From Candidatus Dormiibacterota bacterium (GTDB lineage: Bacteria > Chloroflexota > Dormibacteria > Aeolococcales > Aeolococcaceae), in contig PLNE01000102.1 in assembly GCA_003141695.1 (NCBI GenBank), positions 5,749-39,705 of the forward strand: 33,957 bases of DNA. Direction: 5' to 3'. Every line of letters starts with the position of its first letter. The stretch's first letter is position 1. Below are positions 1,853 through 33,957 of this stretch, one piece after another. The position numbers were made by a program, and so were the translations under genes. The notes below the pieces were generated by a model. It ran no database searches, was not told the origin of the DNA, and saw nothing but the letters and a program-made list of their open reading frames with translations.

Positions 1853-1918
1853 AGCGGGAGACGAGACTCGAACGCGCGACATCCAGCTTGGAAGGAATGT
1901 TCATGAATTCGAATACGG
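1853..1918 (-). repeat. tRNA-Gly(UCC) 3'-half repeat, copy 1
   Basis: Read on the minus strand, this begins in an anticodon loop CTTCCAA and runs through a T-arm and the acceptor 3' strand. No matching 5' half exists here. It differs from the other copies by one base in the T stem (aacgcgcg instead of aactcgcg) and lacks the CCA complement. The adjoining tail keeps a GAATTCGAATACGG-type sequence resembling copy 4. It is interpreted as a displaced attachment-site scar. The 310-bp interval 1740-2049 holds no gene that I can see. Confidence 0.8.
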
Positions 1919-7144: not shown

Positions 7145-7176
7145 CCCAGCCCAACTCCGCTGGCGATAGGGTCGCT

Positions 7177-7212
7177 CCGTGGCGGCGCCGGAGCGCGTTA
7201 CTTGAGCTTCTG
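7177..7212. repeat. tail-only relic of the tRNA-Gly repeat family
   Basis: This 36-bp segment closely matches the distal tail of copy 2 at 12397-12432 (both contain GGAGCGCGTTACTT.AGCTTCTG), but no tRNA portion precedes it. It sits between the convergent malic enzyme and sthA genes. It is read as a decayed attachment-site relic. Apart from it, the 250 bp between those genes holds nothing recognisable. Confidence 0.55.
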
Positions 7213-12320: not shown

Positions 12321-12432
12321 TGGAGCGGGAGACGAGACTCGAACTCGCGACATCCAGCTTGGAAGGAACGTGCTCAGATTCGTATTCGGTTTCGCGCCGT
12401 GGCGTCGCTGGAGCGCGTTACTTCAGCTTCTG
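12321..12432 (-). repeat. tRNA-Gly(UCC) 3'-half repeat with tail, copy 2
   Basis: The minus strand reads anticodon loop CTTCCAA, a TCGCGAGTTCGAGT T-arm, and an acceptor strand ending in CCA (TGG at 12321-12323). The 5' half of the tRNA is absent; instead the repeat continues into a conserved tail with CAGATTCGTATTCGG and GAGCGCGTTACTTCAG. It is a complete copy and separates regions 2 and 3. The 357-bp interval 12149-12505 contains no gene that I can support. Confidence 0.85.
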
Positions 12433-14560: not shown

Positions 14561-14722
14561 CGGCACACCCTGCCCATCGCAGCGCACTCCAGCACATACA
14601 CGTCCGGGATATTCTCCACCGGAGGCGCACCCATGTTCGCGCCCCAAGGCAGACGCCCCCGAACCAGATGAGCTTGCCCCACGAATTGCCGTCGGTGGGG
14701 TGATACTCGGCTCGTCGTCGCA

Positions 14723-14742
14723 GCCCTGGTTCACCCCAGGGC
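14723..14742. terminator. possible terminator hairpin
   Basis: GCCCTGG and CCAGGGC form a 7-bp stem around the 6-nt loop TTCACC, 160 bp downstream of the hydrolase. There is no T-tract. The 14561-14794 interval otherwise shows no gene that I can support. Confidence 0.35.
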
Positions 14743-14794
14743 ACCGGCCGCATCGACGATGCACCATCGCCGCTGCCTGCGCGATGATCCGTCG

Positions 14795-15631
14795 ATGCCA
14801 CACCGGGCGCTGGTCTCAGCCGAGATCTCCTTACCCGCGCACCCCGCTACTGCACGCGTCACAGAGCGGATCGCACAGCTGGCGCAGGACGTCGAACTGG
14901 TCGTGCTCACCGACAATCACGCTGGGCAGGCGCGGATGTCGCCACTTGCGGCGGTGGCCCTGGCGCGGGAGCAGGGGGTCCGCACCGTGGTCCATATCTC
15001 GGCGCGGGATCGCAACCGGTTAGCGCTCCAGAGCCAGGTGATTGGCGCTGCCGCCCTCGGCTGCGACGGAATCGTCTGCCTCCACGGCGACGACGTTCCC
15101 GGGATCCGCCGGGTGGGCGACATGACCGGGACGCAGTTGCTCGCGGCTGCCGGGGAATGGCTGGCCCCGCTGCCCATCGCGCGAGGCTGTGTAGTGAACC
15201 CGTTTGCCACCGATCCAGATAGAGAGCTGCGGCTGCTGCGGCGCAAGGTCGAGTGCGGCGCAACCTTCGCTCATACCCAGATGTGTTTCAGCATCCCCGC
15301 ACTGACCCGGTTCCTGGATCGCGCTGGCGAGGCGGGGCTGCTGAAGGGACTGCGTGTTTACGTGACCGTAGGAGTCCTGCGGACTCGCGCCATGGCTGAT
15401 CGTGCCCGCTCCCTGCCTGGCTGCGACCTGCCTGACTCGGCCTATACCCAGGTGTGCGCCGGGGGAGGATGCGAGTTGGCCCTTGAGATGGCACAGCGCC
15501 TAGCCGATCTTCCGGTCGTGGACGCGCTTCATGTCATGCCCCTAGGCGACGAGCCCACCGCTGCCCAGGTGGCAGCCTCGTTCCGCCGTGCCCGACGGGT
15601 CGCCACGGGGCATGGGGTCGCGAGTGCTTGA
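14795..15631 (+). CDS. methylenetetrahydrofolate reductase-like protein
   Basis: TIM-barrel protein of the methylenetetrahydrofolate reductase (MetF-like) superfamily, 278 aa from the ATG at 14795. Visible family features are the N-terminal SAEISLP with the conserved Glu, an ARDRNRLALQS segment, a strand with GIVCLHGDD, the later GATFAHTQMCFS strand and a YVTVGVL strand. Classical MetF reduces methylene-THF to methyl-THF for methionine synthesis; some relatives act in other C1 or corrinoid systems, so the precise reaction is not settled. A start at 14759 is possible but Arg-rich. No Shine-Dalgarno is obvious. No methionine-pathway neighbour is present, so it is probably a lone cargo gene. Confidence 0.72.
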   Translation: MPHRALVSAEISLPAHPATARVTERIAQLAQDVELVVLTDNHAGQARMSPLAAVALAREQGVRTVVHISARDRNRLALQSQVIGAAALGCDGIVCLHGDDVPGIRRVGDMTGTQLLAAAGEWLAPLPIARGCVVNPFATDPDRELRLLRRKVECGATFAHTQMCFSIPALTRFLDRAGEAGLLKGLRVYVTVGVLRTRAMADRARSLPGCDLPDSAYTQVCAGGGCELALEMAQRLADLPVVDALHVMPLGDEPTAAQVAASFRRARRVATGHGVASA

Positions 15632-15791
15632 CTGGCCCAATGCAAGCGAAGGGCCGACACAGCGCTCAACGATCGTCGCCGTGACCGCCCGACGCGCCTC
15701 AAATCAACAGCTGACCTGCCTCCCTCGGGAGCTCGCGAAGGCCGCCAGCAGGGCCTCTACGACACCCTCACGAACTTACGCCACGGGCCAC

Positions 15792-16340
15792 TTAGTCTTG
15801 GCCGGGGAGAGGAACGTGCTCCTCGGGCGAGGGGAAATCCCCCGTCCTCCCGTCGATCCGCTCCCGGATCAGGTCAGCGTGACCGTTGTGCCGGGAGTAC
15901 TCCTCAATCATGTGGTTGACCATGCAGCGCGCCGACATCTCGAGGTAGTCGGGGGTGCTGAAGGTCACGTCCAGCGAGTCCAGATCGTTCAGGATGGACC
16001 GCGCGATCCGGCACTCATCCCCCCACATCGAGAAGGCCTCGGCAACATCGGCGTCCGCGACCGAATCGAAGTCGGCGTCGGGCTGAGCCTCGGTACACCA
16101 GATCCGCCCAATCGGCTCCCCAGAGAAGCGCCGACGGAACCAGCTTCGCTCGACTTCGGCCATGTGGCGGACAAGTCCAAGCAGGGTGAGATTGGAGGGA
16201 GGGACCGACGGCGTCTTGAGCTGAGCGTCGGAGAGTCCCTGACACTTCCAGGCCAGGGTGGATCGCTGATCCTCAAGGAAACCCGTCAGGGTCGTTCGCT
16301 CATCCCCGTTCCACGCCGGGTCGGGAGTCTGCCCAAGCAC
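15792..16340 (-). CDS. DinB-family / DUF664 protein, second copy
   Basis: Same family as 1233-1739, clearly homologous over DERTTLT.FL, LLGLVRHMA.VER.WFRR and the C-terminal EEYSRHNGHADL block. The metal-binding His pattern is intact, so a thiol- or metal-dependent enzyme is expected with unknown substrate. The start is uncertain: the frame is open to an ATG at 16433, but that N-terminus is Pro/Arg/Ser-rich and unlike the paralogue, so I use the GTG at 16340 (182 aa). It is divergent from the PPOX gene. The two copies sit in different tRNA-bounded regions, which suggests independent acquisition or duplication. Confidence 0.8.
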   Translation of the reverse strand: MLGQTPDPAWNGDERTTLTGFLEDQRSTLAWKCQGLSDAQLKTPSVPPSNLTLLGLVRHMAEVERSWFRRRFSGEPIGRIWCTEAQPDADFDSVADADVAEAFSMWGDECRIARSILNDLDSLDVTFSTPDYLEMSARCMVNHMIEEYSRHNGHADLIRERIDGRTGDFPSPEEHVPLPGQD

Positions 16341-17052: not shown

Positions 17053-17160
17053 GAGCGGGAGACGAGACTCGAACTCGCGACATCCAGCTTGGAAGGAATG
17101 CGCTCAGATTCGTATTCGGATCGGCTCGGTGGCGGCGCTGGTGCGCATTGCTTCGGGTTG
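17053..17160 (-). repeat. tRNA-Gly(UCC) 3'-half repeat with tail, copy 3 (next to integrase)
   Basis: The minus strand carries the CTTCCAA anticodon loop, the T-arm and the acceptor 3' strand, but the CCA complement is changed (GAG in place of TGG). The tail CAGATTCGTATTCGGATC and a degenerate GGTGCGCATTGCTTC block follow. The integrase gene begins about 140 bp to the right, the usual layout of an attL site. The interval 16988-17301 contains this repeat and the integrase upstream arms. Confidence 0.85.
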
Positions 17161-17238
17161 TGATGAAAGGCCAAGTATTGCCACGGCGTCTAGCGGAGAT
17201 CGGGAAACCCCTTCAATAGCAGGCAGATTGGGTCAGGC

Positions 17239-17279
17239 TGTGCCAGCCCGTGCCAGCAAATGGCACAGTGAAAGGCACA
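17239..17279. repeat. GTGCC/GGCAC arms upstream of integrase
   Basis: Four GTGCC or GGCAC units occur in 41 bp, two in each orientation. GTGCCA-GCAAA-TGGCAC is a perfect inverted repeat, and TGTGCCA/TGGCACA gives an overlapping one. Position between the att-like repeat and the integrase start suggests arm-type integrase sites or an int operator. Similar units recur at about 30968-31135. Confidence 0.5.
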
Positions 17280-17301
17280 GTTGTGGTAGCCTCCGGCCAC
17301 C

Positions 17302-18381
17302 ATGGCGGCGATCGAGCGGCACCGGCACAAGGGGGACGGGTACCGGCGCGACGACGGCCTCTGGGTCATCCGGGTCCAGCTGGCGGACGGGAAGCGGGTC
17401 GCCTGCTACGGCCGGACCCTGGCCGAGGCCCGACGCAAGGCCGAGGCGAAGAGGGGGGAGTGGCGGCCGGCCGCCGAGGCCTCGGTCGCGTCCTTTGCCC
17501 AGGACTGGCTGAGCGAGCGGCGGACCTCGATGAAGCCCCAGGGGTGGGCCACCTATGAGCGGACCCTCCGGCTCCACGTCCTCCCGGTGCTGGGCGACGT
17601 TCCCCTGGCCAAGGTCACCGAGCGCCACCTCGCCGATCTCTACGGCCGGCTGGCTGCCCAAGGGCTGGCCGGGTCCTCCGCCAACTTCGTCGGCGTGATC
17701 CTCAAGGCTCTCCTCAACGACGCGGAGAAGCGGTCGCTCATCCAGCGCAACCCGTCGCGCAACGTCCGGCTCCCACGCAAGGTCTACACCCGGGAGAAGG
17801 TGATCCTCGACGCCGCGGAGGCCAGGCGGTTGATCGAGGCGGCGAAGGGGGAGGGGTTCGCGGCCCTCTACACCCTGGCGCTGACCACGGGGATGCGCTC
17901 GGGCGAGATCCGCGCCCTGCGTTGGAGGGACATCGACCTCGAGGGCGGCCGCGTCCTGGTCCGCGGGACGGTCACCACCCGGATCGGCGGAGGCCGGATT
18001 ATCGACACCCCCAAGACCACCCGGAGCCTCCGCGACATCCCGATCCCGCAGGTCACCGTCCAGGCCCTGGCGGCCCACCGGGCAAGGTCAGCGCCGGCGG
18101 ACGGGATGGTCTTCCCGGGGAGCGACGGGACCCTCATGCACTCGCAGACCCTCGGCCGGGCCTTCCACACCCACCTGGACAGCGCCGGGCTGCCTCCGAT
18201 GACCTTCCACGCGCTGCGCGATACCGCGGCCACCCTGATGCTTCAGGGCGGCGTGCCAGCTCACGTCGTCAGCCGCATCCTCGGCCACGCCTCGGAGGCG
18301 ATCACCCTCTCGGTCTACGCCCATGTCACCCGCGGCATGGAGGCCCAGGCGGCCGCCGCCGTCCAGGCCATCTTCGGGTAG
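17302..18381 (+). CDS. int: tyrosine-recombinase integrase
   Basis: Site-specific integrase of the phage/ICE type, 359 aa. An N-terminal arm-binding region (residues 1-60) is followed by a SAM-like core-binding domain (about 61-155) and the catalytic domain. All active-site residues are visible: Arg199 (TGMRSGEIRAL), Lys238 (TPKTT), His303-x-x-Arg306 (FHALRD), His329 (LGHAS) and the nucleophile Tyr339 (SVYAHV). It should cut and join DNA at the tRNA-derived attachment site. It lies just to the right of tRNA-Gly copy 3, with paired GTGCC arms between them, as expected at the left end of an integrated island. It is the only integrase found in the window. A candidate excisionase lies 4.4 kb away on the other strand. 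Confidence 0.95.
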   Translation: MAAIERHRHKGDGYRRDDGLWVIRVQLADGKRVACYGRTLAEARRKAEAKRGEWRPAAEASVASFAQDWLSERRTSMKPQGWATYERTLRLHVLPVLGDVPLAKVTERHLADLYGRLAAQGLAGSSANFVGVILKALLNDAEKRSLIQRNPSRNVRLPRKVYTREKVILDAAEARRLIEAAKGEGFAALYTLALTTGMRSGEIRALRWRDIDLEGGRVLVRGTVTTRIGGGRIIDTPKTTRSLRDIPIPQVTVQALAAHRARSAPADGMVFPGSDGTLMHSQTLGRAFHTHLDSAGLPPMTFHALRDTAATLMLQGGVPAHVVSRILGHASEAITLSVYAHVTRGMEAQAAAAVQAIFG

Positions 18382-18493
18382 CCTCCGGCGCTGGCGACCG
18401 TCGCCCGCTCATCGCTGAGCAGCGGGGGATGCTGTTGCGCCGACCGTAGTGATTGTCTTCCCTTCGCGGCCGCGTATCCTTCGTGCCGCCGCA

Positions 18494-19120
18494 ATGCCTG
18501 CTGCCACAGCGCAAGGGTCCGTCGAGCTGGTCCTACGACCTCGCTTCAGTCGGACACGGCTTGTGCGGTGGTACCCACCGAGCGCCGTGGTGATACTGGC
18601 CGCGATGGCCGCCGCCAGCGGGGTGGCCACCGGCTGGACTCCTCTGACCCTGGCATTCACCGGTGGCTTTGTGATGCTCCTCGGTGGCGCGATCGAATTC
18701 GGCGTCATCACCCGCGACCTGGTGACGGTCCGCGGAGGAGCGATCACCGTCCGGAGACCTCTTCGGCACGACATCCAGCGGCCAATATCGACGGTGATGC
18801 GCGTCAGCCTGCTCCCCGGCCGGCCTGCCACCGGTCGCCGAGGGGCCGGCGGCTGGTACGCACTGATTCTCGATGACGGATCGACCCTGACAGTGCTTCT
18901 CAAGCGGAGATATCGGAGCGATGACCTCTCCACCTTCCTGGCGCTTCTGCCAGCGCCCGAGCCGGTCGAGGATACCCTGGAACGTCGTGACATCTTCAGG
19001 TCGTTCAGGGCTTCAGCACGTTCCTCGGGGCAGGACCTTGTGCTGGTGGGCCTCTCCTACGTACTCGTTTTCGGTGGCGGGGGGATGGCCCTCGCCGGCC
19101 TCCTGGCGATGCACAGGTAA
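18494..19120 (+). CDS. membrane protein of unknown function
   Basis: Family not recognised. Two N-terminal membrane spans are visible (YPPSAVVILAAMAAASGVA and LTLAFTGGFVMLLGGAIEF), then a soluble beta-rich middle (RDLVTVRGGAITVRRPL, WYALILDDGSTLTVLL) reminiscent of bacterial PH-like domains, then a C-terminal span (LVLVGLSYVLVFGGGGMALAG). About 208 aa from ATG 18494; a GTG at 18449 would add 15 residues. It follows the integrase by about 110 bp on the same strand and may be island cargo. A hairpin at 19256-19284 could end its transcript. Confidence 0.55.
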   Translation: MPAATAQGSVELVLRPRFSRTRLVRWYPPSAVVILAAMAAASGVATGWTPLTLAFTGGFVMLLGGAIEFGVITRDLVTVRGGAITVRRPLRHDIQRPISTVMRVSLLPGRPATGRRGAGGWYALILDDGSTLTVLLKRRYRSDDLSTFLALLPAPEPVEDTLERRDIFRSFRASARSSGQDLVLVGLSYVLVFGGGGMALAGLLAMHR

Positions 19121-19255
19121 GTCAACGGTGGTGGATACGACGTCGGGATTGGTGCTGAGGAGTGGACGGCTCGCGACTGGCCAATTCCCGGATTGGGTGT
19201 CAGTTAGCCTCGTCAGCCGCGTCCTGCCGGGTTGCGCTGGCAAGGTAGCGCGATA

Positions 19256-19284
19256 GGCCCCTCGGCGTGACCGAGCCAGGGGCC
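19256..19284. terminator. hairpin between convergent genes
   Basis: GGCCCCT and AGGGGCC flank a 15-nt loop that can form an inner CGG/CCG stem. It lies between the membrane-protein gene (plus) and abiEii (minus), so it could act as a bidirectional terminator. There is no T-tract. The rest of 19121-19359 shows nothing. Confidence 0.45.
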
Positions 19285-19359
19285 GCCTCGTCCGGCGGGG
19301 ATATCGAGTCCTAGCTGATCCACGGAGAGTGCACGCACGTGCTCACCTGGAACGGGCGA

Positions 19360-20304
19360 TCACGGTGTCAGGCGTGGTCGGATTGCGACCAGGGTTTGGA
19401 GCACGCTCTCGAAGGATGGCGAGGCGCCAAAGAAGAGGCTGCGGTCACGCTCGTATTCTCGGGCGAGTGTGGTGCGGAGTGGTTCATCGGGGAAGAGACC
19501 CGAACTGCCAGCGAAGTCGAGATCGGGCGGACCAAGGTGGTTGCGGAACTCCCGTGAGCCGAGCGCGTCGTGATCCTTTGCCATCTGCCAGAATGCGCCG
19601 GTTCCGACGGAGGCCCTGACACTGTCATCGCCCAGGAGTCTGATCACATCGTAGTAGTGACGGCCAATGCGCGTCAGTGAGGACGTGTCGGGATCGCTCA
19701 GGTGCCGTGCAACCGTGCCGTGGATGACGAAGAGCTTCTCGACCAGGGTTCGCTCGGCGCCCAAGACGGACAGGCTGCACGAGGGAAGCTCCGCATCGGC
19801 GGCGGGCACCGCATCGGCGAGCAGGGTTCTCAGCTGCAGAGTGGCGACGGGAGCGAACGCGCTCCTCACTCCCATCTCCAGCAGGACGCTCGGCTGCACC
19901 AGTTCGCCCCCAGCCCATATCGCATCGAAGCCGTAGGCCAGGGTCCGGTGCTGGCCCCTGCCACTGTCCTTAAGCTTTGAGGGCAGGGAGCACTGATCGG
20001 CGACAGTGCGCGCGATGCCTTTCAGCAAGGTGTCTCGAGCCGCCTCCCCGCGCCCGCCGGGGTTGACGGCGAGGTCGATGTCCTCGCTGAATCGCTCGGT
20101 GAGATGCCAGCCCTTTGAGAGGCTCGTACCGCCCTTGAGGACGACATCGTCGGAGTGCCCGTCGGCGATGGCGCAGAGGGCGCGGGTCACCCAGTAGTCC
20201 TTCTCGAGGATCGCCAAGAGTGCCGGGTTGTTGCTGTGCAGGGCATCAGCAGCGACCCGACAGAGGTCGGCAAAGTCTGCCTTGTCGACGCGTGGGTCGA
20301 TCAC
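19360..20304 (-). CDS. abiEii: AbiEii-type nucleotidyltransferase toxin
   Basis: Toxin of the type IV AbiE system, a nucleotidyltransferase-like protein that in characterised members blocks growth, in some cases by modifying tRNA, and can abort phage infection. From the GTG at 20304 it has 314 aa, the normal size. Motifs seen are EKDYWV at residues 34-39, the nucleotide-binding LKGGTSLSKG at 56-65 and the metal site RFSEDIDL with Asp75 and Asp77. The GTG overlaps the antitoxin stop as GTGA, so translation is coupled. A longer start at 20367 lies inside the antitoxin gene and is rejected. Confidence 0.87.
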   Translation of the reverse strand: MIDPRVDKADFADLCRVAADALHSNNPALLAILEKDYWVTRALCAIADGHSDDVVLKGGTSLSKGWHLTERFSEDIDLAVNPGGRGEAARDTLLKGIARTVADQCSLPSKLKDSGRGQHRTLAYGFDAIWAGGELVQPSVLLEMGVRSAFAPVATLQLRTLLADAVPAADAELPSCSLSVLGAERTLVEKLFVIHGTVARHLSDPDTSSLTRIGRHYYDVIRLLGDDSVRASVGTGAFWQMAKDHDALGSREFRNHLGPPDLDFAGSSGLFPDEPLRTTLAREYERDRSLFFGASPSFESVLQTLVAIRPRLTP

Positions 20305-21008
20305 TGAGCTCCCCAGGATCGGGCAGTCGGGAGGTCGCGCAGCGGACCGAAGGCGTAGCGGGAGCAAGGATGGACCATCTCTCGGTATCGCTTCACAACC
20401 GCGGCCGGGGCCTCGACGGCCTCAGCCAGGGCGCCAAGCATGGCTCGGACCCTTGGCGGCTCATCCCAGGCTGCGGTGGCCATGCGATCCAGAGAAACGA
20501 CCCCATCGCGGATGAGTTGAACGGCCCGAGCGCGGGTCTCCTCCGCGGAGAGATCCGAGAGGTGTTTGATGTCGCGGAGCACCTCCAGAAACGCATTCTC
20601 GTCAAGGGTCAGGGAGCGCCTCGCCGGGCTTCTCTCGAGAATCCGGAGCCCCTCCAGCCCCCGTCGGCGCAGCCGCCGGCCTCGGGTCGAGATGATGTCG
20701 GCGCGCCCCATGGGCAGCTGAGTGGTGAAGCCGAGGGTGTTGGCCGCGGTCACGCCGCCGGGCGTGTAGCGGACCTCATCGAGGGCTGAGAGAGCGACGT
20801 GGAGACGGTCAGCCGGGACAGGTCCGAACCTGCTCGTCCTCGGCACGTAGTAGTGGCCACGTCGAACGCGTACGAGTTCCCCTCGGGCCGCCAGACGGGA
20901 CAGGGCATGAGCCGCCGTCGATGGCGGGAGCTCGCGGAAGGTGGTTGCCGTGACGATGTGGCCCGGCTTGGTTTGACGGTGGGCGGCAAGGGAGCTCGTG
21001 CGGGCCAT
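20301..21008 (-). CDS. abiEi: AbiEi-type antitoxin
   Basis: Antitoxin and autorepressor of the AbiE pair, 235 aa. The N-terminal winged helix is visible in the FRELPPSTAAHALSRLAARG region followed by GELVRVRRGHYYVP, typical of AbiEi. The C-terminal domain (about residues 60-235) contains the LSALDEVRYTPGGVTAANTLGF and RGRRLRRRGLEGLRIL segments. It precedes the toxin with a 4-nt overlap. The ATG at 21008 has no Shine-Dalgarno; a -10-like TAGTAT ends 6 nt upstream, so the mRNA is probably leaderless. A near-palindrome at 21033-21048 is a likely operator. Confidence 0.85.
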   Translation of the reverse strand: MARTSSLAAHRQTKPGHIVTATTFRELPPSTAAHALSRLAARGELVRVRRGHYYVPRTSRFGPVPADRLHVALSALDEVRYTPGGVTAANTLGFTTQLPMGRADIISTRGRRLRRRGLEGLRILERSPARRSLTLDENAFLEVLRDIKHLSDLSAEETRARAVQLIRDGVVSLDRMATAAWDEPPRVRAMLGALAEAVEAPAAVVKRYREMVHPCSRYAFGPLRDLPTARSWGAQ

Positions 21009-21014
21009 GGCGCC

Positions 21015-21048
21015 ATACTAGCACATAAATGATGGCAAATATATGCCA
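21015..21048 (-). promoter_or_regulatory. abiE promoter and operator
   Basis: TAGTAT on the minus strand (21020-21015) is the probable -10. The 16-bp near-palindrome TGGCAAATATATGCCA at 21033-21048 covers the expected -35 region and fits AbiEi autoregulation. The AT-rich patch stands out from its surroundings. Confidence 0.5.
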
Positions 21049-21128
21049 CTTACCCGGTCACCGCCCCGACCGGACCAAGGCGCGCTCGGCTGCACGCCGT
21101 GCCTGCCGACTCCGTTCGGCTTCTGGGT

Positions 21129-22148
21129 TCACGACGTGGGTCGCCTGAGGTCACGGAGGTGCTCGGCAGCCTCTTCCCCGCGGACACCGAGATGACGCAG
21201 GTCTGCGAAGATCCGGGGCCAGGGGGCGATCCGCAGACCATCGGTGTCTGTGGTGAGATGTCGCGTTCCGGCGCTCGGGAACGGCCGGAGGATCAATCGC
21301 CCACCGGCCATCGGCTCGCGACTGCCAGCCTCGGCCACAAGGCGCAACGCGGGCTCGGTGCGGGCGTCGACAAAGACGTCGGCGGAGGAGACAGTGGTCA
21401 GCAAGGGGGCGACGAGGCTGGCGGCCATCGCCCCGGTCAGCGCCCAGCTGATGCGGCGCTGAGCCCAGCGGTCACCCAGATCCCGGAGTTCCGAAGCCGG
21501 ATCGCGCCAGAGGATGCCAACCTCCAGCCGCAGAGGCGGGGCGAGGCGTGCCACAGCGTCCGCGTAGTCGTCCAGCAGTCGGTCCCACTCGGCGATCCTC
21601 CGTGCCGCATCCGGCCCGCGCCGCTTCTCCGCTCGCAACAGACCGCGCGTCTCGAGGAGCGCCAGCCCCACCTGTGCCGATCTCGGCGAGTACCCGGTCG
21701 CTCGGGAGATCGCGTCCACGGTCCCTCGAACCCCGGAGAGGAGCGCCTCCGCGATTCCGAGGGTGGACGGGCGCCAGCCGCTCGGCTCTGGGGTGAACCG
21801 GTGCGAGCCGCTTCGTACGACGAGAAGCGTCGGTGTGCTGATCTCTGCGGCGCCGCTCTCATCGAGCCACCCAACGGAGTGACGCCGGGCGACTTCCTGC
21901 GCTCCTGGTGACATCTGGGGGGCGATGACCACGTCGGGAAGCGGTCGCTGGTTCAAAGAGTTGGTGAGATCGCGAGGCCAGCCGCGCGGCACCCACCGCA
22001 CGGAAAGGCGCCTCCCGTTCAGGCGCAGCAGGCTGTCTGCACCGGACTCGTCGAGGATCTCCACCCGGGCGGTCGGCGGCAGGACGCCGCGGAGGGCCGC
22101 CACGACGCGCTCCGCACGGGGAGAGGAGCGGACTTTTAGGCTAACCAT
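21129..22148 (-). CDS. solitary AbiEi-like regulator (COG4861-like)
   Basis: 339-aa protein, tentatively placed with uncharacterised AbiEi-like antitoxins (COG4861-like). An N-terminal domain has VRWVPRGWPRD and DVVIAPQMSPGAQEVARRHSVGWLDESG, a pattern like the restriction-endonuclease-like fold of such proteins. A winged helix follows (GVRGTVDAISRATGYSPRSA, LLETRGLL). The C-terminus has WALTGAMAASLVAPLL, VFVDARTEPAL and ends RIFADLRHLGVRGEEAAEHL, common in this group. No toxin gene is next to it in operon order; it lies upstream of abiEi but is separated by 120 bp with its own promoter. A perfect 17-bp palindrome overlaps its promoter, so it is probably autoregulated. The ATG at 22148 has a -10 (TATACT) 7 nt upstream and is likely leaderless. 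Confidence 0.65.
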   Translation of the reverse strand: MVSLKVRSSPRAERVVAALRGVLPPTARVEILDESGADSLLRLNGRRLSVRWVPRGWPRDLTNSLNQRPLPDVVIAPQMSPGAQEVARRHSVGWLDESGAAEISTPTLLVVRSGSHRFTPEPSGWRPSTLGIAEALLSGVRGTVDAISRATGYSPRSAQVGLALLETRGLLRAEKRRGPDAARRIAEWDRLLDDYADAVARLAPPLRLEVGILWRDPASELRDLGDRWAQRRISWALTGAMAASLVAPLLTTVSSADVFVDARTEPALRLVAEAGSREPMAGGRLILRPFPSAGTRHLTTDTDGLRIAPWPRIFADLRHLGVRGEEAAEHLRDLRRPTS

Positions 22149-22155
22149 ATGCCAT

Positions 22156-22174
22156 AGTATACTGCGGCAGTATA
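22156..22174 (-). promoter_or_regulatory. palindromic operator over -10
   Basis: TATACTGC-G-GCAGTATA at 22158-22174 is a perfect inverted repeat. The minus-strand -10 TATACT (22161-22156) partly overlaps it, and a second TATACT sits in the other arm. Binding by the downstream gene product is inferred. Confidence 0.6.
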
Positions 22175-22302
22175 GTAAGAGATAAATTAGTCCTTAAAGT
22201 CTCCCACGCGGCCGTCTCCACTGGATGGTGCCGGCAGACCAGGCTCTTCGGGGCGGCGCCAGAACCAGGGAATCGCCGCGCCTTGAGCCCAAGCGAGCGA
22301 GC

Positions 22303-22331
22303 TTGTCATTATGAGTGAGCGGTCATAGACT
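22303..22331 (+). promoter_or_regulatory. promoter of the XRE gene
   Basis: TTGTCA (22303-22308) and TAGACT (22326-22331) are 17 bp apart. The -10 ends 9 nt before the ATG, and no Shine-Dalgarno is visible. The 22175-22302 stretch holds nothing else recognisable. Confidence 0.5.
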
Positions 22332-22340
22332 GAGGCCATC

Positions 22341-22655
22341 ATGAGCGGCTGGGACGAGTTCTACGCGGAGATCGAGGCCGAGGCGAAGGCCGAAGGGCCG
22401 GCGGCCGTTCGCGACCTCCGAGCCAAGGAGCTCAAGTACAGCCTCATCACCTCCCTCATCGCCGGCCGGCGTGATCTGCACCTCACCCAGGCTCAGCTCG
22501 CTGCCCGAGCAGGAGTGGCCCAGGAGGAGATCAGCAGGATCGAGCGCGGCCGCAAGAGCCCCACCATCGACACCTACGCGCGGATCGCCGCCGCCTTGGG
22601 TCTCCAACCTCAGCTGCGCCGCCGCGTTTCCCGCGCCCGGGCTCGCGTCGCCTGA
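22341..22655 (+). CDS. XRE-family HTH regulator
   Basis: 104-aa Cro/CI-type DNA-binding protein. An N-terminal acidic helix (WDEFYAEIEAEAKAEG) precedes a clear HTH: LTQAQLAARAGVAQEEISRIERGRKSP at about residues 48-74, followed by TIDTYARIAAALGL. The layout resembles HigA-type or prophage antitoxin regulators, but no toxin gene lies beside it on the same strand, so it is an orphan. It could control the excisionase-like gene that faces it from the minus strand. A TTGTCA/TAGACT promoter places the transcription start at or just before the ATG. Function is known only as DNA binding. Confidence 0.82.
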   Translation: MSGWDEFYAEIEAEAKAEGPAAVRDLRAKELKYSLITSLIAGRRDLHLTQAQLAARAGVAQEEISRIERGRKSPTIDTYARIAAALGLQPQLRRRVSRARARVA

Positions 22656-22766
22656 CCCGGCATCTCGAGGCGGACCGGCAACGGGAGGGCAGAGCGCGCC
22701 CGACGGCCGAAGTCGACAAGCGTGGGCGTTGCAGCTAGCCAAGCTCTCATTCGATCGACCTCAGAC

Positions 22767-22991
22767 CTATCCTGCGGCTCTCCGCACCGGCCGTCGATGC
22801 CAGCGGGAGGCGCGGGCTGCGAAGTCGCGGATCGCCTGATCACTGATCCGCGCCGACCCTCGGATGTGCGCGACGGGAAGAGTGCCGTCGTCGACCAGGC
22901 GCCAGACCGTCCGCACGCTGACGCTCAGCATCCGGGCTGCCTCGGGGACAGTCCGCAGCAGCGGGGCGACACGGGTTCGGCCCGTGCCCAT
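22767..22991 (-). CDS. excisionase-family DNA-binding protein
   Basis: Small winged-helix protein of the MerR/excisionase type, about 75 aa from the ATG at 22991. The core LRTVPEAARMLSVSVRTVWRL, then VDDGTLPVAHIRGSARI and AIRDFAAR, matches the HTH_17/Xis pattern. Such proteins act as recombination directionality factors for tyrosine integrases or as plasmid regulators. The frame is open to 23165, but the extra N-terminus is encoded by the GTAC-repeat DNA and is unlike the family. Its upstream side is packed with GTAC-centred motifs, plausible binding sites. It may serve the integrase at 17302, though they are not adjacent. Confidence 0.68.
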   Translation of the reverse strand: MGTGRTRVAPLLRTVPEAARMLSVSVRTVWRLVDDGTLPVAHIRGSARISDQAIRDFAARASRWHRRPVRRAAG

Positions 22992-23040
22992 GGGGAGCGG
23001 CTCGACGAGAGGCTGCTGCACGGTGCCATCCCAGCAGCCG

Positions 23041-23310
23041 GCGCGTACGAATCGCGTACGAGTCGCCTCCGGGCCCCGCGCCCTTACCGCAGCGAGCGAC
23101 GAGTACGCAGCATACGCTGCGTACGTCACGGCGCTGGTGTGACGTGATCGTGGGTACAGACGCAATCCCCCGAAGCGTGTGAGCGTACAGACGCGCTTGT
23201 CGGTGGCCGTTTGCGCGTACAGGAGCGTACGCGGCGATCTGGTCCGTTACAACCTTGTCACACACCTTGTCTGCAGGGTCGACGATCACCCTCCGCCTCG
23301 TACGCGGCGG
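23041..23310. repeat. cluster of GTAC-centred motifs
   Basis: Nine GTAC tetramers occur in 270 bp (first bases 23043, 23054, 23101, 23119, 23152, 23185, 23217, 23227 and 23300), mostly in CGTAC contexts such as GCGTACG and GCGTACAGACGC. Three more follow at 23528, 23587 and 23596. About one would be expected by chance. It lies directly upstream of the excisionase-like gene. Candidates are arm-type recombination sites or iterons of an integrated plasmid origin. The rest of 23311-23730 holds no gene that I can support. Confidence 0.55.
23101..23122. repeat. 22-bp inverted repeat in the GTAC cluster
   Basis: GTACGCAGC and GCTGCGTAC are perfect 9-bp arms around ATAC. Immediately right, CGTCAC/GTGACG (23122-23142) gives a second, smaller inverted repeat. 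These stand out as likely protein-binding or strand-transfer sites. Confidence 0.55.
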
Positions 23311-23730
23311 CATCCGCAGGTTTGCTCGTCTTGAGCCCTCCCTGATGCGCTGGCGGAGGTAGGCACGGCGCGCCGGCCCGTCCGGCGTGGCCCAGCCGTC
23401 TGCCGAAAGGTCTGACCCCGGCCAGGCGCACGACGTGACGGGCTCAGAGCTCCTAGAGGCCGCCGGTTTGGGGCCGACGTGGCGCCAGGGAACGGTGGAT
23501 CGAACAGATGACCGGAGGGTGCATAGGGTACGGTATCCATGAACGGCGCAAACGCAAGAGAGGTGAGCGTGGAGGCGGGGGAAGGCGTACGCGGCGTACG
23601 GAGCGTTCGGATGATGGCGTCATGGGCGGGTCTGGCGATGACCAGAGACGACCCGGTGAGCCGTGGGCACCGTCCGCGTCATGGGCGTGTTGGTCCCTGA
23701 TACTCGGCGGCGAGATGCTACGGTTGGACC

Positions 23731-26825: not shown

Positions 26826-27699
26826 TCATGCTGCCGTCGTTGGCTGGTGGCGAACCTCGAACTCGACCGGGGTGAGCATACCCAGAGACGAGTGTCGACG
26901 CTGCCGATTGTGAAAGATCTCGAGGTACTCGAAGATCGCGCTGGCCAACTCGATCCGCGTTTCCCAGCGCTTTCGATCCAGCAACTCGACCTGCATCCTG
27001 CTCCAGAATGATTCGATGACCGCGTTGTCGAAGCAGTCACCCACCGAGCCCATGGATGGCAAGAGGCCGGAATCGACAGCTCGGCGAGTGAAGGCCCACG
27101 AGGTGAATTGGGTGCCCTGGTCGCTGTGGATGATGGTCTCCCCTTGGGGCCGGCGCTGCTCGATGGCCATCCCCAGAGCGTTGGTCACGAGCGCTGTGCT
27201 TGGTGTTCCGTCGATCGACCAACCGACCACCCTTCGTGAACAGGCATCGAGAACGACGGCGCAGTAGACTTTGCCCTCCCTGGTTGAGTGCTCGGTGATG
27301 TCTGTAACCCATAGCTGATCCAGATCGTCGCGATGAAACTGCCGATCCATGTGGTCGCTGGCGGTGGCCATGCCGGGGATGTGCCGGAAGCGAGGGCGAC
27401 CCGAGATCCCGTGGATTCCGGCACGGCGCATGAGCAACTCGACGGCCTGATGGCCGATGGCGACACTCTGCCCGAGGGTCAGGTCGGCGTGAACGGGACG
27501 GATCCCATAGGTTCCCCGCGAGGCGCTGTGGACCTATGGGATCAGATCGGTGAGCCAGGCGTGTCGGACAGCCCGCGCGGAAGGCGCACGCGACCGCCAA
27601 GCGTAGAAGCCGGACTCGGACACCTGGAGCACACGACAGGCGAGCTGTGCTGGCAGAGCGGACGCGGTGATCACCTCAATGGCCGCGCACCTACTTTTG
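26826..27699 (-). pseudogene. IS3 transposase OrfB with internal amber stop
   Basis: DDE-type integrase-core half of the transposase, in the -1 frame relative to OrfA. The N-terminal CRVLQVSESGFYAWRSRAPSAR segment is followed by an in-frame TAG at 27536-27534, where relatives have a sense codon before IHxxSRGTYG. After the stop the sequence continues without shift: SRGTYGIRPVHADL, LMRRAGIHGISGR, then LWVTDIT with the first Asp, IIHSDQGTQFTS with the second Asp, DNAVIESFWSRMQVELL with the Glu, and HNRQRRHSSLGMLTPVEFE. The catalytic core is intact but cannot be made as a full OrfAB fusion without stop suppression. An ATG at 27437 could still produce the catalytic part alone. Confidence 0.88.
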
Positions 27700-27976
27700 G
27701 GCTTGTCGCTTCTTTCAGCAACTCGGCGGCCTTGCGGTGGATGCCGAGCTCGCTCTCGAGCTCTCGGATGCGTCGCCGGGCCGCCGCCAACTCGGCGCGC
27801 TCCACCGAGGTCAGACCCGCCTCGACCCCTTGGTCCACCCGCGCCTGTCTCCGCCAGCTGTATACGGTCTGGTCGCTGATGCCGAGGTCGCGGGCGACAT
27901 CGCCGACACGGCGGCCTGCTGCGACGAGGTCAAGCACCCGTTGACGGAACTCCGGCGGGTAACCCCTTCTTCCCAT
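27671..27976 (-). CDS. IS3 transposase OrfA
   Basis: 101-aa OrfA from the ATG at 27976. GYPPEFRQRVLDLVAAGRRV leads into an HTH, VGDVARDLGISDQTVYSWRRQ, followed by the leucine-zipper-like helix LAAARRRIRELESELGIHRKAAELLKE. This is the DNA-binding and dimerising half of the transposase. CTGTCCTCCTG is on the plus strand, so AGGAGGACAG precedes the ATG on the minus strand as RBS; the longer frame to 28027 passes into the terminal repeat. Near its 3' end the heptamer CCCAAAA (27701-27695) is a canonical -1 slippery site leading into the OrfB frame. Confidence 0.88.
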   Translation of the reverse strand: MGRRGYPPEFRQRVLDLVAAGRRVGDVARDLGISDQTVYSWRRQARVDQGVEAGLTSVERAELAAARRRIRELESELGIHRKAAELLKEATSPKVGARPLR

Positions 27977-28137
27977 GCTGTCCTCCTGGTGCGACAACAG
28001 CATGCCAGTCCAGTAATCCGACTCCACAAAACCCAGGGCAGACCATTCAGCAGTTTGGATTTCGTCTCCCTGACCCTCACGAGTGGTCCGGGAGCTCTGT
28101 CGGAGGTGAAGAGGCCGTGGTCACGGAGCTGAGACCG

Positions 28138-28191
28138 ACCAGTACCCCCTGCAGGACTCGAACCTGCGACCTGCGCGCTTAGAAGGCGGCT
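28138..28191 (-). repeat. tRNA-Arg(UCU) 3'-half repeat, copy 1
   Basis: 54 bp identical to copy 2 at 30787-30840. The minus strand reads anticodon loop CTTCTAA (UCU), the T-arm GCAGGTTCGAGTCCTGC and an AGGGGGT acceptor strand. No D-arm or matching 5' acceptor strand lies upstream, so this is a 3' half, not a tRNA gene. No CCA is encoded. It marks the left edge of the sigma/propeller module. Confidence 0.88.
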
Positions 28192-28238
28192 GGCCTTCCT
28201 TCTGCCTGCTCGCTCAGATCGGAAGGTAGGCACGCGGC

Positions 28239-30065
28239 TCACCCGGGGGGAGGTGAACCGGGTGCCACCGTGAAAGCCACCCTCTCAGTGCTCGAACCAT
28301 ACGTGGCCTGCATCGTCCAGCAGCCGGCGGCGGTGGGCATGAGCCGACCCTCGACGAAGGCCCAGCCGTTCGCGGTGGGTGCGATGGTGACGGTCTGCTC
28401 GCCCTCGAAGGTCGCGCTGCTCCCGGTCGGGCCAGTGAAGCTCACCGTGACCGGATCACGGACGCTGGGGTCGACCATGATCGCGGTCTCGTCGCCGGAC
28501 TCGTACCAGACGAGCTGACCGGTCAGGTACACGGGTCCCGAGCCGTATCCGTAGCTGAACAGGAGGCCGTGATCGAGTTGCGTGTACTCGGCGGCGGGCA
28601 GAGGAGAGGGCGCCACGGCCGCGAGGTCATCCTGATACGCGGAGTCGCAGCCAGGGATCGGGGTGGCCGGAGATATGTTGGAGCCTCCGCCCCCAGAGCC
28701 CGGAGAGGGAGGCGACGTGGAGCTGAGCGGGCTACCGGACGCCGACACATTGGTGGCGTCGCCGACCGCCCAGCAGTCGTCGGGCGCCGAGCAGGCCACG
28801 CCGTTGAGCTGGACGCCGGTCGGAGGGGTCGACACCACCGATGTCCACTCGCTGCCCTGCCACTGCTCAACCAGCGTCTCCTCGGCGGCGGCGCCCGAGT
28901 TGTCCACGGACCCGACCGCCCAGCAGTCGTTGGGCCCGGCGCAGGTGACGGCCACGAGAGCAGGCGGTCCAGTTACCGGCCATGACGGAGCACTGAGGAC
29001 GCTCCACCCGGTGCCGTCGTAGTGGACCACGCCATTTCCGACCGCCCAGCACTCGTCCGGTCCCGAACAGCTGACGCTCTCTAACGAAAACCGACTCAGA
29101 CTCGTGGACCCAAAGGCCACCACCCATGCGGTCCCGTCGTAATGCCAGATCAGGCCGGAGGAGGTCGAGGAGTCGCTGCCCACCGCCCAGCAGTCATCGG
29201 AGCTGGCACACGTGACCGCCCGGAGGTCGATCTCGTCGGGTCCGCTGCCCGTCGGACTGGGCGGCCCGGTGACGACCGTCCATCCGGTGCCGTCATACCG
29301 CTCGAGAAGGGGCTCAAGCACGGGCTCGAGCGCGGTTGAGTTCGGACTCGTGGCCCCCACCGCCCAGCACTCGTTGGACGTCGGGCAGGTCATGCTGAGG
29401 ATCTCCCCCTGTGGCGGGCCAACGGCTGCGCTCCAGACGCGACCGTCGTAGTGCTCGAACGCGGCCGTCGACTGGTTCGCGGCCGAGCCACCAACTGCCC
29501 AGCAGTCGGTGGAGCTTGCGCAGGAGATCACGTCGAGGACGGAGGAGGGCTGGGCGGCGACGCTCCACGAACCGCCAGCCAGATGATCGATCAGCCCGTG
29601 CGCGTTGACCTCGCCGACCGCCCAGCAGTCGCCCGGTGCCGGGCAGGCGATGGCCTGCAACACCGGCATACTCGCCCCTGGACCGCTCTTGGCAGGGGGC
29701 GCCGTGCGCGGTTGCACCAGTGCCCAACCCCCACCGGTGAGGCGCTCGATTCCTGCTCCGACCTGATCCGCTGTGGGTCCGAACACCGGCGAGGGTGCCA
29801 CCGGGGACGGGCTGGGGGTGCGCTGCACCACCGTGTGACGGTGCGAGCCGGAGCCAGCTGTCGCGACCACGAGGATCGCAGCCGTGACGGCGGCCACGAC
29901 CACGAAGACCACTACCGCACCGATTCCCCGTGCGCCAAAGCGGCGGCGCCGGCGCGGCGGCGCCAGCCAGTCCTCGAGTCCGGCGGGAGCTGGGTGAGAT
30001 GTCGACTCCCCAAGGAAGCGTCGGAGCCGGGCGCGGCTCTCCTGGTCGAGCTCGTCGTCGGTCAT
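28239..30065 (-). CDS. membrane-anchored seven-bladed propeller protein, sigma-operon partner
   Basis: 608-aa protein from ATG 30065. A short cytoplasmic N-terminus (MTDDELDQESRARLRRFLGE) is followed by one transmembrane helix at about residues 48-75 (AVVVFVVVAAVTAAILVVA) and a large extracytoplasmic part. That part holds seven repeats of CxxxxxCWAVG (GDCWAVG, TDCWAVG, NECWAVG, DDCWAVG, DECWAVG, NDCWAVG, DDCWAVG), alternating with HYDGxxW units, the pattern of a seven-bladed beta-propeller with disulphides. An Ig-like C-terminal domain follows. The gene overlaps the ECF sigma gene by 4 nt (ATGA), and GGGAGGTGATG supplies an RBS. The layout of short cytoplasmic tail, single span and sensor suggests an anti-sigma or co-sensor. 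No classical zinc-finger anti-sigma motif is seen. Confidence 0.82.
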   Translation of the reverse strand: MTDDELDQESRARLRRFLGESTSHPAPAGLEDWLAPPRRRRRFGARGIGAVVVFVVVAAVTAAILVVATAGSGSHRHTVVQRTPSPSPVAPSPVFGPTADQVGAGIERLTGGGWALVQPRTAPPAKSGPGASMPVLQAIACPAPGDCWAVGEVNAHGLIDHLAGGSWSVAAQPSSVLDVISCASSTDCWAVGGSAANQSTAAFEHYDGRVWSAAVGPPQGEILSMTCPTSNECWAVGATSPNSTALEPVLEPLLERYDGTGWTVVTGPPSPTGSGPDEIDLRAVTCASSDDCWAVGSDSSTSSGLIWHYDGTAWVVAFGSTSLSRFSLESVSCSGPDECWAVGNGVVHYDGTGWSVLSAPSWPVTGPPALVAVTCAGPNDCWAVGSVDNSGAAAEETLVEQWQGSEWTSVVSTPPTGVQLNGVACSAPDDCWAVGDATNVSASGSPLSSTSPPSPGSGGGGSNISPATPIPGCDSAYQDDLAAVAPSPLPAAEYTQLDHGLLFSYGYGSGPVYLTGQLVWYESGDETAIMVDPSVRDPVTVSFTGPTGSSATFEGEQTVTIAPTANGWAFVEGRLMPTAAGCWTMQATYGSSTERVAFTVAPGSPPPG

Positions 30066-30739
30066 CGGCTCATCACCTCCCGGAGAGCGACTAGGGCGCG
30101 ATGCAAATGGCTGCGCGCGGTCCCGGGCCGGCAACCCATGATCTCAGCAGACTCGTCGAGCGAGTAGCCGAAGAAGTAGTGGAGCATGACCACCGCGCGC
30201 TGCTGCGCCGTGAGGCCGTCAAAGGCTCGCGCAAGCTCGGGATCGAAGGGCTCGGGGTCGTGGCCCATCATCTGCGCGTGCAGGGCTGTCTCCCGGGTCC
30301 GGAGCCGGCGAAGGTGGATGCGGCGACTGAGGCTGCGATTGACGCAGATCCGGGTCAGCCAGGGTCCCTGGTCAGCGAATCGGTCGGTGCGGCGTCAGGC
30401 TCGCCAGGCACGCACCAAGACGTCCTGGACGGCGTCCTCTGCCTCTGCCGGGTCGCGCAGGATCGTATAGGCAATACCGAAGAGATGGCGGGCCTCGCGC
30501 CGGGCCACCGCCTCGAAGCCTGCGTCGTCGCTTTTGTCGGCTGGGGCACCCTCCACGGTCGGTAATTGGACCACGTCGTAAAAACCCCGGAGCGGCGACG
30601 CCGGTTTACCTGCAGGGAGTCCCGGGCTCAAAGGCCCGCCGGGCGCCCCGCCAAGGCAGATGTCGCCCTTGACAGCTGGGCCTGACCCCGTAAGACGGAC
30701 CACGATGCTGTGGGGGGCAACCAATGCGGTGTAACGCAT
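30062..30739 (-). pseudogene. ECF sigma factor interrupted by in-frame TGA
   Basis: Extracytoplasmic-function sigma-70 factor. Region 2 is clear upstream of the stop (FEAVARREARHLFGIAYTILR, then DPAEAEDAVQDVLVRAWR). Region 4 is clear after it (LTAQQRAVVMLHYFFGYSLDESAEIMGCRPGTARSHLHRAL). Between them a single TGA at 30397-30395 stands in the same frame, at a position where Arg is usual; the flanking linker (RRTDRF, then GPWLTRICVNRSLSRR) stays conserved without any frameshift. A CGA to TGA change explains it. Unless read through, only region 4 could be made, from MMGH at 30271. The true start is unclear because residues 1-55 are not sigma-like. The downstream receptor gene is intact and coupled. 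Confidence 0.82.
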
Positions 30740-30786
30740 GTGGCGGGTACGCTGTTATCGGGCCCAAGGTGCTCATCTCGTCGCAC

Positions 30787-30840
30787 ACCAGTACCCCCTG
30801 CAGGACTCGAACCTGCGACCTGCGCGCTTAGAAGGCGGCT
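30787..30840 (-). repeat. tRNA-Arg(UCU) 3'-half repeat, copy 2
   Basis: Identical over 54 bp to copy 1 and in the same orientation, 2,649 bp away. The flanks beyond the repeat differ (TTTCTATTGATTAG here). No 5' tRNA half is present. It marks the right edge of the sigma/propeller module. Confidence 0.88.
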
Positions 30841-31158
30841 TTTCTATTGATTAGGCGGTTGCTTAGTACCTCGCGAATTCAGGTGCATCATCTAGCTGGG
30901 CCAGCCCAGCGTCCTCTCTCATGACGTCCGCTGGAGGCGGCGGGGTGGCGTCTCAATAGGCTCAGTAAAGGCACAGTGCCGTGGGAAACCCCTTATATAT
31001 CAGTGCAATGTCCGCGCTGTTCCGCAAGTACAAGTTTGGACGCGGCTGCGGGAGCCCGGAACTGCAAACGCGCTGATCACGTGCCAGGCCCGCTGACTTT
31101 TCATCTTGCCCTCAACTTGCACGGATTGGCACGGCCGCTGGTCCGTGGTCAAGGAGCC
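30841..31158. other. non-coding stretch resembling integrase upstream arms
   Basis: No gene is apparent. AAAGGCACAG at about 30967 and GGGAAACCCCTT at about 30983 both recur just upstream of the integrase (AAAGGCACAG at 17271, GGGAAACCCCTT near 17203). Further GTGCC/GGCAC units lie at about 31082 and 31129. It looks like the att-proximal arms of a related integrase gene that has been lost, next to tRNA-Arg copy 2. Confidence 0.4.
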
Positions 31159-32023: not shown

Positions 32024-32133
32024 GGAGCGGGAGACGAGACTCGAACTCGCGACATCCAGCTTGGAAGGAACGTGCGCGGATTCGAATTCGGATTCTGCGA
32101 AAACCACCGTTTGAGCGCCTTCACTCAGCTTCT
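32024..32133 (-). repeat. tRNA-Gly(UCC) 3'-half repeat with tail, copy 4
   Basis: Same tRNA segment as the other copies, exact from the T-arm to the anticodon loop, followed by the tail GGATTCGAATTCGGATTC and TTGAGCGCCTTCACTCAG. The CCA complement is changed (GGG in place of TGG). It marks the right boundary of the integrase-bearing region. Confidence 0.85.
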
Positions 32134-33171: not shown

Positions 33172-33275
33172 TGGAGCGGGAGACGAGACTCGAACTCGCG
33201 ACATCCAGCTTGGAAGGAACGTGCCCAGATTCGTATTCAGATTCCTGGGAACCAGGCGTTTGAGCGCATTGCATC
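33172..33275 (-). repeat. tRNA-Gly(UCC) 3'-half repeat with tail, copy 5
   Basis: Full-length copy with the CCA complement (TGG at 33172-33174), T-arm, anticodon loop and tail CAGATTCGTATTCAGATTC, then TTGAGCGCATTGCATC. The tRNA 5' half is again absent. The 142 bp between it and 33417 shows no gene. Confidence 0.85.
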
Positions 33276-33417
33276 GCCTTCTTGCACTTGGGCGAACGGC
33301 GATGACCTTGAGACGCGCTTCCTGGCCCCCCAACAGATCGACGCGTTCATAGAACGGGCCCCGGCCCTCGAACCCCTCCCCTCCTCTGCCCACCCCATGA
33401 GACCAAAGCCGTGAAGC

Positions 33418-33957
33418 TCATGGTCTGCGACTGCTGGGAGATCGCCCTCTTCCGCCCTCCACCGCGCCCTCGCGTCGCCGCGGGCCACGCCCCTTTTCTG
33501 CCAGGGTGGTGGGCATCAACACGCCCGCTACGATGCGCCGTCGCCGCCCCGGGGCGGGAGCGTTCGCCATGCGGGGCTGGACCACCGGAGCCAAGTCATG
33601 GAGGAACTCGGCAAGCTCCGCGTCGGTGAGCCACAACGCACCCATGCGGTAGCCCACGCCGTCGCGCGCCGGGTCGGGTTCACCCAGAGCGAGGTAGCGG
33701 TCGAAATCGCCGAGCAGTCCCGCGACGAAGGCCATGAACGCTCGCCGGTGTTCCTCGGTGGTCATGGCGGCGTCAGCCTGGGCGGCAGCCACCCGGAGGA
33801 TGTACGTGCGCTCCACGGCGCCGCGGACCCGATGTTCCGCGGCGATGCCGAGCACGCCGGCGCTCAGCAGCAAACCGACGTGGCGGTACAGGCTCCCGGG
33901 AGGCACGTCGGGCAGCTCGGCGGCGAGTTTGCTTGTGGTGAGCGCCCGATCGCCCAG
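33418..33957 (-). CDS. winged-helix regulator, 5' end outside the window
   Basis: The gene runs off the right edge, so its N-terminus is missing. The visible part, about 180 residues, starts with an ArsR/HTH_20-like winged helix: LTTSKLAAELPDVPPGSLYRHV, then LLLSAGVLGIAAEHRVRGAVERTYIL. The remainder is a helical domain (EHRRAFMAFVAGLLGDFDRYL, then LWLTDAELAEFLHDL) seen in regulators that bind small ligands. A GTG at 33906 could be taken as a start but would cut the HTH in half, so it is internal. The target is unknown; it lies just to the right of tRNA-Gly copy 5. Confidence 0.75.
   Translation of the reverse strand: MGDRALTTSKLAAELPDVPPGSLYRHVGLLLSAGVLGIAAEHRVRGAVERTYILRVAAAQADAAMTTEEHRRAFMAFVAGLLGDFDRYLALGEPDPARDGVGYRMGALWLTDAELAEFLHDLAPVVQPRMANAPAPGRRRRIVAGVLMPTTLAEKGRGPRRREGAVEGGRGRSPSSRRP

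Follow-up and report, generated by a model that had tools for sequence, protein, structure and literature searches.

The window analyzed here, a stretch of 33,957 nucleotides on contig C160 of a Candidatus Dormibacterota MAG (G000; G002, G004, G005 and G006 are congeners), contains two 54-bp direct repeats around a 2.65-kb segment, and the question raised by this locus is whether the segment arrived as a single mobile unit at a tRNA gene or forms part of a larger structure. We think it likely that the segment is one cassette in the remnant of a tandem array of tRNA-Arg(UCU) halves, into which a recombinase acting in trans would insert circles, with the array growing outward.

The two repeats are identical at all 54 positions, as the original prediction held, and start 2649 bp apart (Table 1); the number of such 54-bp pairs expected by chance in 34 kb is effectively zero. 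Their 49-nt core is the 3′ half of tRNA-Arg(UCU), beginning in the anticodon arm, and is identical to that of an intact gene on contig C182 of the same assembly (7124-7198, minus strand), which adjoins tRNA-His; the earlier reading of the repeats as tRNA-Arg(UCU) halves was therefore correct. ARAGORN labels the C182 gene Pyl(CUA), its anticodon loop CTTCTAA is that of Arg(UCU), and the gene scores 56.6 bits with the Rfam tRNA model. Read by eye, its anticodon stem appears to carry two mismatches, 27-43 and 28-42; anticodon-stem mismatches and the miscall as tRNA-Pyl are seen at both tRNA-Arg(UCU) loci L012:7123-7198 and L049:2203-2277. The window holds no intact tRNA, and its contig no intact tRNA-Arg. 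A search of three genomes with the anticodon loop and T-loop returned array cores and the C182 gene only, which makes the latter the sole tRNA-Arg(UCU) seen in assembled sequence. A check for an intact tRNA-Arg(UCU) nearby, suggested in the original prediction, was thus negative for the window contig and positive for the assembly, where the intact gene heads an array on C182, as it does in G004 on C78.

One operon fills the space between the repeats, as had been claimed: an ECF sigma factor gene and an anti-sigma-like repeat gene joined by an ATGA overlap, the sigma frame being broken by an in-frame TGA. In the earlier label 'sigma/propeller' the first half was borne out by Sigma70 region 2. 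The propeller fold was not confirmed, as the repeat protein has no Pfam match and AF2 run on one sequence gave a pLDDT of 39; the seven DCWAVG-type repeats make a beta-propeller probable. The nearest sigma ortholog, on G005:C105, lies beside genes read as nrnA, truB and ribF on a contig that carries no Arg core, so the genus also has this operon at an ordinary chromosomal locus. No integrase is encoded within the 2.65-kb segment, in agreement with the prediction that mobility would require a recombinase in trans. The further suggestion of a recent or actively maintained unit was not supported: the distal core has no conserved extension on its cassette side and the sigma gene is interrupted, so that the cassette looks decayed and, from the missing extension, is probably no longer a competent unit. 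Among the relatives compared we found neither the focal cassette in an array, nor the same outer flanks, nor an empty junction.

The outer flanks place this cassette in a wider context. To the left of the distal core lies the end module of a neighboring Arg cassette, of a different class from the module 'a' that ends the focal cassette, and module 'a', the proximal core and the ~53 nt of extension beyond it match four cassettes with different cargo. The extension belongs to the right-hand neighbor, where it ends early at 30893. Since both outer flanks match other Arg cassettes, the region is the remnant of at least three of them, situated between the Gly cores that begin at 17054 and 32026. 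The Arg sites are of a type distinct from the tRNA-Gly(UCC) cores, as first proposed. Two identical direct repeats enclosing one operon are also what a single autonomous island, inserted once at tRNA-Arg and bounded by attL and attR, would leave behind, but with about 11 copies genome-wide, outer flanks that match other cassettes and no intact tRNA-Arg on this contig, an isolated insertion of that kind is very unlikely. An IS3-like transposase remnant (HTH_Tnp_1, 27037-28027) is located directly left of the distal Arg core.

Table 1. Position of features in the window.
Feature	Position	Strand	Remarks
tRNA-Gly(UCC) half core 1	1853..1895	-	
tRNA-Gly(UCC) half core 2	12324..12366	-	With its own extension
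tRNA-Gly(UCC) half core 3	17054..17096	-	
secA 3′-tail-like attachment core, before integrase	17172..17231	+	80% to secA tail + arm, G006:C181
Tyrosine integrase, secA-tail-targeting family	17302..18381	+	95% to G006:C181, 86% to G004:C79
End module of left neighbor Arg cassette	28050..28142		80-87% match to cassette ends in G002:C69, G006:C72, G000:C179
Distal Arg core	28138..28191	-	49-nt tRNA-Arg(UCU) 3′ half 28143-28191 + 5 nt; no conserved extension on cassette side
Anti-sigma-like protein	28239..30065	-	Short N-terminal domain, one likely TM helix, seven DCWAVG-type repeats
ECF sigma factor gene, interrupted	30062..30595 (start approximate)	-	Sigma70_r2; ortholog G005:C105 73% identical
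In-frame TGA in sigma gene	30395..30397	-	Trp in ortholog G005:C105
Cassette end module 'a' (~115 bp)	30676..30786		82-90% matches, one shared boundary; four cassettes with other cargo
Proximal Arg core	30787..30840	-	Core 30792-30840 + 5 nt
Shortened conserved extension, begins next Arg cassette	30843..30893		~53 of ~140 nt
tRNA-Gly(UCC) half core 4	32026..32068	-	
tRNA-Gly(UCC) half core 5	33175..33217	-	

The same architecture recurs across the genome and the genus. In G000 there are about 11 Arg cores on five contigs (five plus a degenerate copy on C63, two each on C160 and C182, and one each on C179 and C236), one of them within the only intact tRNA-Arg(UCU) found, and pattern or extension searches located Arg sites in five of the six congeners searched. 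Matches in the public genome collection came from the Candidatus Dormiibacterota MAGs fen_878 and fen_839 and from UBA12275, labelled Chloroflexi. Most cores carry a conserved extension of ~140 nt on the anticodon side, and some cassettes have an end module of ~115 bp on the opposite side; the 3′ half thus delimits units of ~0.7-13 kb with unrelated cargo, which sustains the idea that the repeats bound cassettes. The Arg extension was not found in the 103 other genomes of the class searched and core plus extension had no match in viral contigs, while matches in phages and plasmids were confined to ~50-65 bp around the tRNA half, which is ordinary tRNA similarity, with no att module.

Over 14 distinct extension-bearing cassettes from five genomes, mean pairwise identity was 97% for the core, fell to 86% over the initial 60 nt of the extension and to 67% over the stretch that follows (a value pulled down somewhat by the shortened extension of the focal right-hand core, which is among the 14), and was 33% over 60 nt of the other flank. 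With the core at 97% beside such diverged flanks, the identity of the two focal cores is uninformative on the age of the insertion; what had been taken as a sign of recent insertion is, as read from this alignment, constraint and not recency. Two hypervariable nucleotides lie between the invariant core and the extension (L050:1418-1419; columns 50-51 of alignment A1), and the pair seems to travel with its cassette.

Comparison of junctions in 50-nt identity steps located the switch between shared and unrelated sequence at the core. Cassette A of G000:C182 and G002:C69 is ~100% identical up to the core and the first part of the extension, beyond which the neighbors differ, and cassette Y of G000:C182 and G002:C25 is 100% identical from inside the core onward, the other side being unrelated. 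For G000:C63 and G002:C135, and likewise for G002:C69 and G006:C72, a common cassette extends up to the core only. Cassette content at the same tRNA-Arg also differs between relatives: in G000 and G004 the tRNA side is ~82-96% identical, the core is identical and the cassettes beyond are unrelated. Shared cassettes thus have different neighbors, and the drop between species from 99-100% identity to unrelated sequence at the core implies that cassettes were exchanged at core sites. Since the shared cassettes are 99.5-99.9% identical, far above the level of about 85-92% at most G000-G002 chromosomal loci compared, the interspecies transfer looks recent on sequence grounds, unless contigs were mis-binned. 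In addition, G000:C63 and G005:C41 share an 8.3-kb unit in circularly permuted form, the two ends of which meet at an Arg core over a scaffold gap of two N, as a circle or a tandem copy would give; this is suggestive only.

Such exchange could also be the work of ordinary homologous recombination between copies of core plus extension, in which case no dedicated recombinase would currently be at work and the array would be a relic of past insertions. The ~190-bp repeats, at 80-97% identity, are good substrates, the Arg contigs lack a recombinase save the secA-type one discussed below, and the focal cassette is decayed. However, the core is near-invariant while the extension drifts, as would be expected of a site that must match both tRNA and recombinase, and in two comparisons (G000:C182 with G002:C25; G000:C63 with G002:C135) the extension remains in full with its cassette and the breakpoint lies within the 49-nt core, observations that leave this explanation unlikely.

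All of the genomes are fragmented MAGs in which contigs frequently stop within a core or an extension, and the junctions are known from assemblies, not from reads; some junctions could therefore be mis-assembled or mis-binned. That the apparent shuffling is largely an artifact of short-read assembly or binning at repeats of 49-190 bp would fit the contigs ending in cores or extensions (C63, C179, C236, G002:C25, G005:C41), yet several MAGs show the pattern, some of them from different samples and years according to record titles, and the cassette ends are conserved modules, making it a rather improbable account of the whole. The G000-G004 integrase locus beside tRNA-Thr, at 99.9% identity, is either another mobile element or a binning problem.

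We searched for the enzyme that the arrays would require. Across seven genomes, Phage_integrase matches placed a tyrosine recombinase on no Arg-core contig except C160, and clustering of the tyrosine recombinases of these genomes tied no candidate to the arrays. The C160 integrase was considered as the Gly or Arg enzyme and judged unlikely: its relatives in G006 and G004 sit at what reads as a secA tail, and the integrase is itself preceded by a secA-like core, so that it more likely belongs to a separate element. Sequence at 21070-23555 also matches related secA-tail elements, and together with 17172-18381 appears as a secA-3′-tail integrative element within a tRNA-Gly unit, with 85-96% matches in G002, G004 and G006; there is a weak candidate for its right end near 30975-31037. 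The intervening stretch 18381-21070, which has no match to the related elements, holds an AbiEii/AbiEi-like type IV toxin-antitoxin pair (19360-21008). Our guess at the Arg recombinase is a 348-aa Xer-like gene present in five of the seven genomes.

Many small cassettes behind a fixed site, apparently served by a recombinase in trans, recall a true integron, which would have folded single-strand sites resembling attC and an integrase of the IntI type. The sites here are tRNA halves, however, with a weak fold (z -1.73) and hardly any covariation, the covariation term being -0.05 kcal/mol and 3 of 45 pairs showing a double change. Ten integrases tested fell well below the XerC, XerD and integron-integrase cut-offs, the integron-integrase models giving 26-57 bits against cut-offs of 265 and 435. 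We regard an integron in the strict sense as extremely improbable.

In the cassette-array mechanism that we favor, a cassette in circular form would carry an attP-like site made up of its end module, core and extension. Crossover, by a tyrosine recombinase acting in trans, would take place in the portion of the core that corresponds to the anticodon loop, and insertion of the circle would rebuild the tRNA, so that the array would grow outward from the tRNA gene. The focal cassette, having a distal core devoid of extension, would probably no longer take part. Against this mechanism, no recombinase has been identified and no excised circle seen, and homologous recombination between the ~190-bp repeats could also swap cassettes.

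Other tRNA halves are organized in a comparable way. Halves of tRNA-Gly(UCC) occur 12 times, once in an intact gene, with an extension of their own, and the Rfam tRNA search detected further partial tRNAs that read as Pro(UGG) and Thr halves with conserved extensions; these half arrays lie at L218, L219, L220 and L222-L226. Each of the seven genomes of the genus has the Pro extension, as against none of 103 others of the class; the extension contains GAAGCAAGTG twice, the reverse-complement motif of which is in the core. Cargo is common to different array types: the MTHFR gene of a Gly unit (14610-15799) is 95% identical to that of an Arg unit (C63:16866-18058), and 33355-33957, in a Gly-type unit, shares 92% identity with a portion of an Arg unit on C63. 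Sharing at 92-95% implies that cargo moved between array types. An intact tRNA-Gly(UCC) (L009:13292-13366, G000:C63) lies inside an Arg-type unit beside two partial copies of the Arg extension. Tentatively, and with the balance of probability against it, one may picture an integron-like system in the genus in which tRNA 3′ halves (Arg-UCU, Pro-UGG, Thr, Gly-UCC) and their extensions would be the recombination sites, stand-alone recombinases such as the 348-aa Xer-like protein would act in trans, and tRNA genes would double as array leaders.

Among known systems, the Arg arrays come closest to additive flexible genomic islands anchored at tRNA genes, of which we consider them a variant: they work alike, and the features tested, namely repeats of a tRNA 3′ part as bounds, an intact tRNA at the array head and content that varies among relatives, were all found. 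In Alteromonas fGI1, gene cassettes that vary by strain, some being shared at >99% identity, are targeted to a conserved tRNA, and another Alteromonas island terminates in a directly repeated copy of the final 52 nt of tRNA-Leu (PMC4119200). As in Alteromonas, a tRNA serves here as cassette target, a tRNA-end repeat marks the boundary and the cassettes vary, some being near-identical; unlike fGI1, the Dormibacterota cassettes are small, have a long shared attP-like module and use four tRNA types in one genus. The additive fGI-2 of Ca. Methylopumilus has repeats of the last 20 bp of tRNA-Lys around islands of 330 bp-42 kb with variable content (PMC10872708). Recurring tRNA-end direct repeats mark variable islands in both cases, whereas the repeat here is a 49-nt half with a ~140-nt conserved extension, at several tRNAs and in a different phylum. 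Tycheposons are tRNA-bordered, cargo-carrying elements of 4-200 kb with a tyrosine recombinase (xerD) (PMC10872708); the Arg cassettes are likewise tRNA-bordered and carry cargo, but their arrays have no tyrosine recombinase of their own, the secA-type one on C160 aside. Integrons and CALINs resemble the Arg arrays in their small cassettes with varied cargo and, presumably, in a recombinase acting in trans; they differ in having attC where tRNA-half sites stand here, and no IntI was found among the ten integrases. The long conserved site, several tRNAs per genome and arrays devoid of a recombinase are what differ from known additive islands. Within the open-licence literature, no paper on the subject emerged when the phylum name was searched together with tRNA and integrase.

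These arrays show that, throughout a genus of a largely uncultured soil phylum, species exchange small packets of metabolic, defence and regulatory genes by way of tRNA-half sites, with several tRNA genes in use simultaneously. Should the recombinase acting in trans be found, the system would represent integron-like gene capture with a very different kind of site, and the movement of integrase-less tRNA islands would become testable.
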